DNA of 32,371 bases. Origin: Natronohydrobacter sp. GTDB taxonomy: Bacteria > Pseudomonadota > Alphaproteobacteria > Rhodobacterales > Rhodobacteraceae. Of the stretch, positions 26,837 through 29,645 are shown piece after piece. The notes under the pieces were generated by a model. That model ran no database searches, was not told where the DNA came from, and saw only the letters and a list, made by a program, of their open reading frames with translations. The first letter of the stretch is position 1. Each line of letters opens with the position of its first letter. The stretch is taken from contig SKSL01000088.1 of assembly GCA_007123015.1 (NCBI GenBank), positions 1 to 32,371 on the forward strand, given 5' to 3'. Position numbers and translations under genes: made by a program.

Positions 26837-27472
26837 TTACTGCTGTTCCATTTGCTCGGACAATTCGTTGAAGGCTGCAGTGAAGCCGATCAGCGACATG
26901 CTCAGATCTACAGTCTGGTCCGGGGCGGCGACAGGCACCAGTGTCCAGACAGCTTCCGCACCACGACGGAAAGCATCAACTTCTGCCCCTGTAAAGCCCA
27001 CCCGCGCGATGCAGCCGATCGCCGTGCAGAAGGTAAAAGGATAGCGCTTCGCGGCCCCGCCATCGACCTGCATGACCAGTTGCGCAGTCAGCAGCGTTTC
27101 CAGCGGGGTCAGGATCGTCGAACCCGCCACAGCTTCGCCGCCTTCGGGCAGTGGAAAGATCGATATCTCTGCGGTCGCATTGCCTTCGCTGTCTCTGAGC
27201 AGCTGATACATCTGGCAAGGATCAGGCGCATCCGCGACACGCACGCAGACCAGTTCCCAATCGCCATGCGTGTTCCCGACATAGCTGTCACCGTCAGTGT
27301 CAGGTGTGACCAATTCCCCGGTCGAGAGCGCAGTCGCTGGGTTTGTCGCTGCAGCAGGGGGTGTTGGGGCTGCGGGCTCGTCAGCAGTTTGCGCGAATGC
27401 GTGTGTAGAAAGAAGGGCCAGCGCAGCTGTTGCAAGCGCCAATCTGCGGGCCTTGGGGAAATGGAATGTCAT
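26837..27472 (-). CDS. Invasion associated locus B (IalB) family periplasmic protein
   Basis: A 211-residue exported protein. The signal peptide is 'MTFHFPKARRLALATAALAL' ending near 'THAFAQ'; a Pro/Ala/Thr-rich linker follows (about 27-50). The IalB domain begins at 'HGDWELVCVRVADAPDPCQM' with paired cysteines, and continues with 'YPFTFCTAIGCIARVGFT', which has two more cysteines. The family is named after a Bartonella invasion protein but is widespread in free-living alphaproteobacteria; its molecular role is not established. The track start is 27517, but AAGGA lies seven bases before ATG 27472, where the signal peptide begins. The two Cys pairs probably form disulfides in the periplasm. 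Confidence 0.9.
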   Translation of the reverse strand: MTFHFPKARRLALATAALALLSTHAFAQTADEPAAPTPPAAATNPATALSTGELVTPDTDGDSYVGNTHGDWELVCVRVADAPDPCQMYQLLRDSEGNATAEISIFPLPEGGEAVAGSTILTPLETLLTAQLVMQVDGGAAKRYPFTFCTAIGCIARVGFTGAEVDAFRRGAEAVWTLVPVAAPDQTVDLSMSLIGFTAAFNELSEQMEQQ

Positions 27473-27507: not shown

Positions 27508-27536
27508 GTCGTAGCATGCAGTCTTGATGCTGTCAG
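27508..27536 (-). promoter_or_regulatory. Possible sigma-70-type promoter of the IalB-family gene
   Basis: On the minus strand CTGACA (27531-27536) is followed after 17 bases by TACGAC (27508-27513). A start near 27501 would leave a 29-base leader to the ATG at 27472. The -35 is one mismatch from consensus and the -10 is weak. Confidence 0.35.
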
Positions 27537-27682
27537 GCGGAAAAACTGGCTCTGCCTCAGTTGTGATGGCAACTGCTTGTCGCGCTGCCGACAGGACGCG
27601 CGGACAAAGCCAAATCTTTCGGTCCAGATGCAAACTTTACTGTCGCACTCTGCGCCCATGGCCAGAACCGGATGCCATAACG

Positions 27683-27725
27683 AAAAAACAAGGACCGAAC
27701 GGTCCTTGTTTTCATTTTATTTTTT
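27683..27725. terminator. Bidirectional intrinsic terminator
   Basis: AAAACAAGGACC (27685-27696) and GGTCCTTGTTTT (27701-27712) form a perfect 12-bp stem with a GAAC tetraloop. T-rich sequence follows on the plus strand and A6 precedes on the left, giving a U tract in both directions. No protein gene ends next to it on either strand. Confidence 0.8.
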
Positions 27726-27754
27726 TTGCTCCCTGCCGGACTGGCCGACGAATT
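27683..27754 (-). ncRNA. Candidate small RNA (~70-75 nt) with perfect intrinsic terminator
   Basis: The minus-strand promoter at 27761-27789 would start a transcript near 27754. It would run through a G/C-rich 5' part ('GGCCAGUCCGGCAGGGAGC'), then an A-rich single-stranded stretch, and end at the 12-bp terminator hairpin and U tract near 27683. Promoter, short body and strong terminator in an otherwise empty region are the hallmarks of a bacterial sRNA. The alternative is a terminated (attenuated) leader of ialB, whose ATG lies 213 bases further along the same strand. I do not recognise a known sRNA family. Confidence 0.45.
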
Positions 27755-27760
27755 GAGCAG

Positions 27761-27789
27761 AGGCTATGCTGAAAGATAAGGTCCGTCAA
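27761..27789 (-). promoter_or_regulatory. Sigma-70-type promoter of the candidate small RNA
   Basis: On the minus strand TTGACG (27784-27789) is followed after exactly 17 bases by TAGCCT (27761-27766). The -35 matches five of six consensus bases. The predicted start lies only about 45 bases before the terminator stem and no gene intervenes. Confidence 0.5.
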
Positions 27790-27908
27790 CAAAAAATTCG
27801 TCAGATTATTTTCCGAAACCCTACGCAGGCTTTACACGGCTTCACAACAGTTTTTCTGTCGGTGTCCCGCGTGCGCGGCGCTGTGTCATGTCCGGCATGG
27901 ACTCAGTG

Positions 27909-27933
27909 AAAAAGCTGCGCCCTAAGGCGCAGC
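27909..27933 (-). terminator. Intrinsic terminator on the minus strand
   Basis: GCTGCGCC (27914-27921) and GGCGCAGC (27926-27933) form a perfect 8-bp GC-rich stem with a four-base loop. In the minus direction it is followed by U5 (27909-27913); no T run follows in the plus direction, so it acts on minus-strand transcripts. Confidence 0.7.
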
Positions 27934-28000
27934 CAGTCTGACAGGGAGAAAACTGCGCGCGCATTGGCAGGTTTGCACGCCGCGCATGCTGTCACGATAC
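27909..28000 (-). ncRNA. Second candidate small RNA (~90 nt), 5' end uncertain
   Basis: A minus-strand terminator at 27909-27933 has no protein gene upstream of it, only the antisense side of the HerA-like gene leader. Upstream on the minus strand a heat-shock-sigma-like pair CTTGGAA...ACCCTTTT (about 28004-28030) would start an RNA near 27997. The predicted RNA has a 5' stem GCAUGC/GCGUGC, an exposed 'UUUUCUCCCUGUC' stretch that could pair with Shine-Dalgarno sequences, and the terminator. The start and sigma factor are guesses; the terminator is clear. A 21-codon ORF starting 'MRGVQTCQCARSF' lies inside. Confidence 0.3.
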
Positions 28001-28106
28001 CTGAAAAGGGTAAAGATTCGCTTTCCAAGCTGTGCCGGGCTGATCTACCGTTCACATAGCGGCGTGCGACAGCAGCGCGATGAGGTAGCAGGATAGGGTC
28101 AGGCGC

Positions 28107-29645
28107 ATGGATGTTCAGCATCAGCCGGTTTTCGTTGGGGGTGGCGGAGAGGACGCACGCGATCCACAGAGGCTGCGACTGGATTTCGGTAACCGCCATG
28201 GGCTGATTGCCGGCGCGACCGGCACAGGCAAGACGATCACGATGCAGATCCTTGCAGAAGAATTCTCGAATGCTGGCGTCCCAGTGTTTCTCACTGATAT
28301 CAAAGGCGATTGCAGCGGCATGTCGATGCCCGGCACCCCGCGCGATGGGCTGGAGCGGCGCGCGGCAAGCATCGGACTGCAAGATTACGGCTATCGTGAA
28401 AGCCCGGTCATTTTCTGGGATTTCTTCGGGGAACATGGCCATCCGGTGCACGCGACCATTGCCGAAGTGGGGCCGCTCTTGCTCTCGCGCATGCTCGATC
28501 TGACCGAGGCGCAGGAAGGCGTGATCAATGTCGCGTTCCGGATTTCGGATGACGAGGGGCTGCCGATCCTTGATCTGAAAGACCTGCGCGCGATGCTGGC
28601 TTTTCTGGGCGAGAACCAGCGCGAAATCTCGCAGACCTATGGCAATGTCTCGACCCAGAGCATTGGCGCGATTCAGCGCAAGCTGCTGGTGCTGGAAAAT
28701 CAGGGCGCAGCGCAGTTTTTCAGCGAACCGGCGCTGGAACTGGCCGATCTGATGCGTCTGGCCCCGGATGGGCGCGGCACCATCTCGATCCTGCATGCTG
28801 AACGGCTGATGCGCACACCGCAGCTTTACGCGACCTTTCTGCTCTGGCTTTTGTCGCAACTCTTCGAGACCCTGCCCGAAGTCGGCAATCCTGAAAAGCC
28901 CGTGCTGGTTTTCTTCTTCGATGAGTCGCATCTTCTGTTCAACGGTGCCCCGCGCGCGCTGGTCGAGAAGGTCGAGCGCGTGGCGCGGCTGATCCGCTCG
29001 AAAGGGGTGGGCGTCTATTTCGTCACGCAAAACCCTGATGATGTGCCGGATACTGTGCTGGGCCAGTTGGGCAACCGTATCCAGCATGCTTTGCGCGCGT
29101 TCACGGCCCGCGACCAGCAGGCGCTGCGCCGCGCTGCCCAGACCTATCGCCCCAATCCGCGTTTTGATATTGCAGAGGCGATCCGCGATGCCGGCGTGGG
29201 CGAGGCGGTGACCTCTTTTCTGGAAGACAAGGGCAATCCGGGCATGGCCGAGCGCACATTGATCCGCCCGCCGCGCAGTCTGATCGGCCCCATCGAGGAA
29301 GGTCAGCGCCAGATGCTGATGCTGCGCTCGCCCGTCGCCGGGAAATATGAGCGCATGGTGGACAGCGACTCGGCGCATGAGATGCTGGCGCGACGGGCCG
29401 AAGCAGCCGCGCGCGAGGCCGAAGCCGCGTTGCAGGCCACAGAGGCCGGGAAAGAACGCGAATTCAACAGCGCGCGGCGCTACGAGCCTGCCGCCCGCTC
29501 GGCCCCTCGATCGCGCGCCCCGGCAGCGCGGCGCGGGGATACGGCTGTTGATGTCTTCGCAAAATCCATGGCGCGGCAGTTGGGCACGCGGTCTGGGCAG
29601 GCTTTGGTGCGCGGGGTGCTGGGGGGATTGTTGCGCGGACGGTGA
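28107..29645 (+). CDS. HerA-like ATPase, DUF853 family
   Basis: A 512-residue ATPase of the FtsK/HerA superfamily (YjgR type). The Walker A motif is 'IAGATGTGKTITMQ' near 34-47, followed by 'PVFLTDIKGDCSGM'. Walker B is 'LVFFFDESHLLF' near 268-279, and the sensor region is 'GVYFVTQNPDDVPDTVLGQL'. The C-terminal part (about 420-512) is an Ala/Glu/Arg-rich charged stretch, then 'GTRSGQALVRGVLGGLLRGR'. HerA proteins are DNA translocases or helicases, but the DUF853 branch has no established cellular role that I can state. There is no NurA nuclease neighbour. A weak promoter (TTGCAC, 17 bases, GATACC at 27973-28001) lies upstream. A terminator-like hairpin follows. Confidence 0.9.
   Translation: MDVQHQPVFVGGGGEDARDPQRLRLDFGNRHGLIAGATGTGKTITMQILAEEFSNAGVPVFLTDIKGDCSGMSMPGTPRDGLERRAASIGLQDYGYRESPVIFWDFFGEHGHPVHATIAEVGPLLLSRMLDLTEAQEGVINVAFRISDDEGLPILDLKDLRAMLAFLGENQREISQTYGNVSTQSIGAIQRKLLVLENQGAAQFFSEPALELADLMRLAPDGRGTISILHAERLMRTPQLYATFLLWLLSQLFETLPEVGNPEKPVLVFFFDESHLLFNGAPRALVEKVERVARLIRSKGVGVYFVTQNPDDVPDTVLGQLGNRIQHALRAFTARDQQALRRAAQTYRPNPRFDIAEAIRDAGVGEAVTSFLEDKGNPGMAERTLIRPPRSLIGPIEEGQRQMLMLRSPVAGKYERMVDSDSAHEMLARRAEAAAREAEAALQATEAGKEREFNSARRYEPAARSAPRSRAPAARRGDTAVDVFAKSMARQLGTRSGQALVRGVLGGLLRGR

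Follow-up and report, generated by a model that had tools for sequence, protein, structure and literature searches.

A conserved small RNA between herA and ialB in Rhodobacteraceae, predicted to act as a sponge for SorX/SorY-like sibling sRNAs

The window analyzed here, a stretch of 32,371 nucleotides of Natronohydrobacter sp. (contig SKSL01000088.1), carries on its minus strand, between ialB and a divergent gene for a HerA-like ATPase, two short predicted RNA genes in tandem, which we call sRNA1 and sRNA2 (Table 1). A sequence-only reading of the window had described the second of these as a compact unit in which a TTGACG-17-TAGCCT promoter is followed by a perfect 12-bp terminator hairpin, and had proposed that it encodes either a free sRNA of about 70 nt or an attenuated leader of ialB. 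The unit is present as described: the hairpin has a 4-nt loop, is followed by UUCGUU and lies 48 nt past the −10 element, while the ATG of ialB, at 27472, is 210 bases past the end of the unit. It is also correct that no protein gene separates promoter and terminator, as none of the reading frames that cross the unit is conserved in the alignment of relatives; one of these, a small protein starting at the ATG at 27715, was considered as a candidate and rejected on this ground. Judged within a single genome, the promoter and terminator matches are weak and unremarkable: the promoter is absent from the list produced by a consensus scan, in which 15 terminator-like sites were seen versus 11.9 expected. 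The predicted RNA folds with unusual stability (z-score −3.8). The unit is more than a chance occurrence because it is conserved in relatives, not because it matches a consensus.

Table 1. Features of the herA-ialB interval and its flanks (positions in the window).
Feature	Position	Strand	Details
ialB (PF06776)	26837..27472	-	downstream flank, synteny kept
ialB promoter, conserved, separate	27510..27536	-	CTGACA...TGCTACG; 30/30 genus members
sRNA2 intrinsic terminator	27679..27712	-	12-bp stem (27712-27685) + U tract
sRNA2, predicted, ~72 nt	27683..27754	-	start and end inferred from -10 element and terminator, respectively
sRNA2 A-rich spacer	27713..27728	-	from alignment
sRNA2 antiseed AGTCCGGCAGGGAG	27729..27742	-	complement of SorX/SorY-like/sRNA1 seed CUCCCUGUyrGACU; predicted duplexes, compensatory changes
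sRNA2 invariant core GTCGGCCAGTCCGGCAGGGAG	27729..27749	-	5' hairpin GUCGG(CCAGU)CCGGC + unpaired AGGGAG
sRNA2 promoter	27761..27789	-	-35 TTGACG (27789-27784), 17 nt, -10 TAGCCT (27766-27761); sigma-70-like
sRNA1, SorX/alpha-R8-like, predicted partner of sRNA2	27908..27973	-	seed CTCCCTGTCAGACTGG 27948-27933; terminator 27934-27909
HerA-like ATPase gene (PF05872)	28107..29645	+	upstream divergent flank, synteny kept

A DNA search found the sRNA2 unit in most species of the genus (the Roseinatronobacter/Natronohydrobacter group). The promoter, the 5' core GTCGGCCRGTCCGRCAGGGAG, the A-rich spacer and the terminator are kept upstream of ialB in all 30 aligned genus regions, one of which (G035) begins at the core, its promoter being beyond the contig end, and the stretches between these conserved parts vary. 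The A-rich spacer that had been noticed in the window thus recurs in the aligned relatives, where it is a possible contact for Hfq. Conservation of promoter and hairpin, which had been named as a check, extends across both the genus and the family, with TTGACG and TAnnnT as the constant elements of the promoter. Among the matches listed in a pattern scan, the core occurs across the Rhodobacteraceae and is in almost every case flanked by ialB and a divergent HerA-like gene. A covariance model, R1, built from 50 members, matches the unit in the window at 27759-27680 with 69.6 bits and has matches in 270 of the 298 Rhodobacteraceae genomes searched, which almost all represent different genera. 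About a dozen of these matches are weak (E above 1e-5) and some are clearly not sRNA2; the 28 genomes with no match include incomplete ones. In a class-wide search, the matches outside Rhodobacteraceae did not exceed 24 bits and were judged to be noise. Two genomes, G258 and G260, gave five and three R1 matches, respectively, so that extra copies of sRNA2 are possible there. A lone match to the core pattern on a contig labelled Halovenus (L113:2591-2611), with no promoter, terminator or neighbours, was taken as chance.

The core contains 18 invariant columns among 50 diverse members, which were themselves chosen by the core pattern; the genus set of aligned regions was not chosen in this way. 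In the 86 distinct R1 matches, 97.7% of the helix cells are paired and 82 carry changes on both sides versus 11.8 in shuffles, in an alignment that was fitted to R1 itself and that includes two antisense matches; such compensatory changes occur in all six modelled pairs of the terminator and in three of the five pairs of the 5' hairpin. With promoter, body and terminator all kept, the proposal of a free sRNA, here predicted at about 72 nt, is strongly supported, and the existence of sRNA2 as a real, conserved gene can be considered well supported by these comparisons.

The other half of the earlier proposal, the attenuated leader, is not supported. A terminated leader would have a precedent within the Rhodobacteraceae in UpsM of R. 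sphaeroides, where a terminator likewise closes an sRNA ahead of a gene, mraZ (PMC5089854), and the synteny with ialB across the family agrees with it. However, mraZ lacks its own promoter (PMC5089854), whereas ialB, by sequence, has one: an extended −10 type promoter of consensus CTGACA...TGnTA lies between the sRNA2 terminator and the ialB ATG in 30 of 30 genus members, and a looser, permissive version of this pattern is found in 66 of 75 family loci. Furthermore, the spacer from terminator to ialB varies freely in length and sequence, and the conserved core of sRNA2 matches sibling sRNAs rather than ialB. We regard a leader function as very improbable. The sequence-only reading is thus supported for the free sRNA but not for the leader, and it overlooked both the pairing partners of the RNA and the second sRNA just upstream.

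Comparison of sRNA2 with all 4227 families of Rfam 15, at gathering and at low thresholds, returned no match, and a literature search with the letters of the core found no description of it. Likewise, no account of sRNA2 or of a sponge for SorX/SorY was found among the papers searched, although published RNA-seq tables may list the RNA without a name; the Paracoccus 'Intergenic 134' RNA (84 nt, very abundant and conserved) might be related to it. sRNA2 represents a new RNA family. Sponges as such are already known, and what is novel here beyond the family itself is the tandem arrangement of sRNA2 with an RNA that it is predicted to bind.

That partner, sRNA1, belongs to a group of stress-response siblings. 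SorX and SorY give R. sphaeroides protection from singlet oxygen, while carbon storage and the response to starvation are steered by alpha-R8 RNAs. sRNA1 scores 30.7 bits (E 4e-6) against the Rfam SorX model RF02784, below the gathering score of 46.6; it is a relative of SorX that cannot be assigned to the SorX family by score. Low-threshold Rfam comparison showed a weaker likeness to SorY and MmgR, with 19.7 bits against the alpha-R8/MmgR model RF00519 (gathering score 41). The alpha-R8 core UUUCCUCCCU is read in many relatives, while the window has UUUUCUCCCU in its place. sRNA1 lies upstream of sRNA2 on the same strand in 120 of 144 loci; the remaining 24 keep sRNA2 without sRNA1, among them Cereibacter flavus (L131, G100). 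A motif, GGAAAGCGAATCTTWACC, at 28008-28026 on the minus strand between herA and sRNA1, is kept in most of the genus and could be a promoter or regulator site of either sRNA1 or herA. The Natronohydrobacter genome contains three SorX-like loci: the sRNA1 locus; C29 (L248, G000:C29), a SorX that scores 58 bits and follows an OmpR-like reading frame, as is the case for SorX; and C21 (L249, G000:C21), which is SorY-like and has a SorY-like terminator. The seed of the latter two, CTCCCTGTTGGACT, is nearly uniform in the genus.

The most conserved part of sRNA2, AGUCCGACAGGGAG, is the antisense of CUCCCUGUyrGACU, the seed common to SorX, SorY and sRNA1, which lies in an unpaired linker of the SorX consensus. 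SorX and SorY (RF02651) of R. sphaeroides carry the seed that sRNA2 mirrors, and they are predicted partners of sRNA2, not its relatives. Within the same genome, the predicted duplex of sRNA2 has an energy of −17.9 kcal/mol with SorX versus a mean of −6.9 when the core is shuffled (0 of 200 shuffles reach the native value), of −17.0 versus −5.7 with the SorY-like RNA (0 of 200), and of −20.0 versus −9.0 with sRNA1 (1 of 200). The antiseed forms 14 unbroken pairs with SorX and with SorY; the pairing with sRNA1 is usually interrupted at its centre by a single mismatch (CAG in place of CGG). Complementarity to the seeds of other sRNAs beyond chance, one mark of the functional class of bacterial sponge sRNAs, is thus found in sRNA2. 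Complementarity alone cannot tell a sponge from a target, because the shared seed is conserved for the siblings' own mRNA targets.

These energies also bear on two different views of the pairing. One is that the roles are reversed, with the tandem sRNA1 sponging sRNA2, or that the two RNAs neutralize each other as a closed pair. The position of sRNA1 just upstream on the same strand in 120 of the loci, and its duplex, by one measure the strongest of the three, speak for this arrangement, but the antiseed is a better match to SorX and SorY, and the loci that lack sRNA1, C. flavus included, nonetheless keep sRNA2; we consider it improbable. The other is that sRNA2 is an ordinary trans-acting sRNA whose core pairs with mRNAs, for example at CUCCCUG-type sites, the likeness to an antiseed being secondary. 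A core of such length (21 nt) and near-invariance exceeds the need of a simple decoy, invariant seeds are common among sRNAs, and the conserved core could pair with mRNAs too. Against this, the predicted pairing with each of the three siblings in the genome is far above the shuffled controls, and changes in the siblings match changes in the antiseed in five of eight genera, so that a trans-acting role seems unlikely while deserving to be kept in mind.

The changes in question are as follows. In diverged members of sRNA2 the antiseed arm of the hairpin and the AGGGA tail stay, while the other arm changes. A C-to-U substitution within the antiseed (GTTCGACAGGGA) is seen in eight genera that lie apart on the tree; its pattern gave 21 matches, of which 8 were taken as sRNA2, most of the others being inside unrelated sequence, and some apparent pairs of AGTCTGACAGGGAG with CTCCCTGTCGGAC, in which a single locus had been read on both strands, were left out of the counts. 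For seven of the eight genera a position on a HerA tree was obtained, and seven separate changes are needed to account for them, so that the C-to-U genomes are not one clade. The substitution turns a G-C pair of sRNA2's own hairpin into G-U, and hence is not explained by that hairpin. The matching G-to-A change (GAAC) is present in at least one sibling in each of 5 of the 8 C-to-U genomes: in SorX in G286, G230 and G144, and in sRNA1 in G286, G185 and G605. Among sRNA1 copies GAAC was found in 3 of 7 C-to-U genomes versus 6 of 90 others (p=0.016). In SorX it occurs in 3 of 4 C-to-U genomes, and it is absent from every SorX-type copy that was read in C genomes, a comparison for which p=0.002 is indicative only, since many of the C-genome copies come from one genus and all were classed and counted by hand. 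One C genome (G354) has a sibling other than sRNA1 with GAAC. No compensating change was found in a sibling in 3 of the 8 C-to-U genomes, and SorY never changes. Overall, these compensatory changes, incomplete and small in number as they are, are supportive of a pairing that has been kept.

StsR (RSs0827), the 'sRNA targeting sRNA' of R. sphaeroides, might also be thought to be represented in the Rhodobacteraceae by sRNA2: it is a free sRNA that has the same length of 72 nt as predicted for sRNA2 and that pairs with another sRNA (PMC8307010). StsR is under stress sigma factors, and its partners are UpsM and rpoE (PMC8307010), unlike the predicted partners of sRNA2; the two RNAs are compared here by published descriptions, promoter and predicted pairing. 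StsR needs RpoHI/HII; in the sRNA2 promoter, which looks sigma-70-like, the TTG and the A-12 spacing also fit RpoHI/RpoHII, but there is no T at −9, which RpoHI needs (PMC3441632). In a pairing test confined to the core, with the mraZ leader of C. flavus and the rpoE 5' regions of three genomes rather than with R. sphaeroides itself, sRNA2 was unremarkable, 147 of 200 shuffles being as good for the UpsM region and 162, 163 and 17 of 200 for rpoE. C. flavus, moreover, has no match to chrR, the partner of rpoE, yet keeps sRNA2, and SorY is slightly lower, not higher, when StsR is missing. Identity with StsR is, in our judgement, highly unlikely.

These results are best accommodated if sRNA2 is a sponge, or decoy, for its SorX/SorY/alpha-R8-like siblings, which on the sequence comparisons above we consider reasonably probable. 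The siblings would expose their unpaired, anti-Shine-Dalgarno-type seed to the complementary antiseed of sRNA2, whose unpaired AGGGAG could serve as a toehold that nucleates on CUCCCU; pairing would then open the 5' hairpin and proceed to a duplex of 14-20 bp, probably on Hfq. The duplex would take the sibling off its mRNA targets and likely speed its decay. Some of the siblings are stress-induced (PMC8307010), and a standing threshold, which induced siblings must exceed, is suggested for sRNA2 because its promoter looks sigma-70-like. We infer in this way its expression, the duplex in the cell, the role of Hfq, the decay and the threshold.

The closest parallel is found in Caulobacter crescentus, where CrfA sponges the alpha-R8 siblings SisA-D with the help of Hfq (PMC12559287), and by analogy with it sponging appears to be the most likely function of sRNA2. 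In both RNAs a G/A-rich stretch is the complement of the CUCCCU core that sibling sRNAs of alpha-R8 type have in common. No kinship between them was detected, R1 giving only noise outside Rhodobacteraceae, and CrfA is likened here by its description and not by its sequence; unlike CrfA, sRNA2 has a predicted pairing of 14-20 bp and one predicted partner encoded next door. QrrX of Vibrio, as far as it is presented where it is cited in PMC12559287, is a sponge of the Qrr siblings and thus also a single antagonist of a set of siblings that have a seed in common; it belongs to an unrelated lineage, as judged from that literature and not from sequences. A broader proposal, that one ancient sponge, encoded in tandem with one of its partners and independent of CrfA, has co-evolved with the whole SorX/SorY/alpha-R8-like network of the Rhodobacteraceae and keeps it in check, is more tentative, and we hold it to be somewhat short of an even chance.

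The sRNA2 family can be added to Rfam. If one RNA does antagonize all the siblings throughout the Rhodobacteraceae, a family abundant in the sea, sRNA2 would be a missing control point of those networks and, together with CrfA and QrrX, would suggest that families of sibling sRNAs repeatedly acquire a common antagonist.
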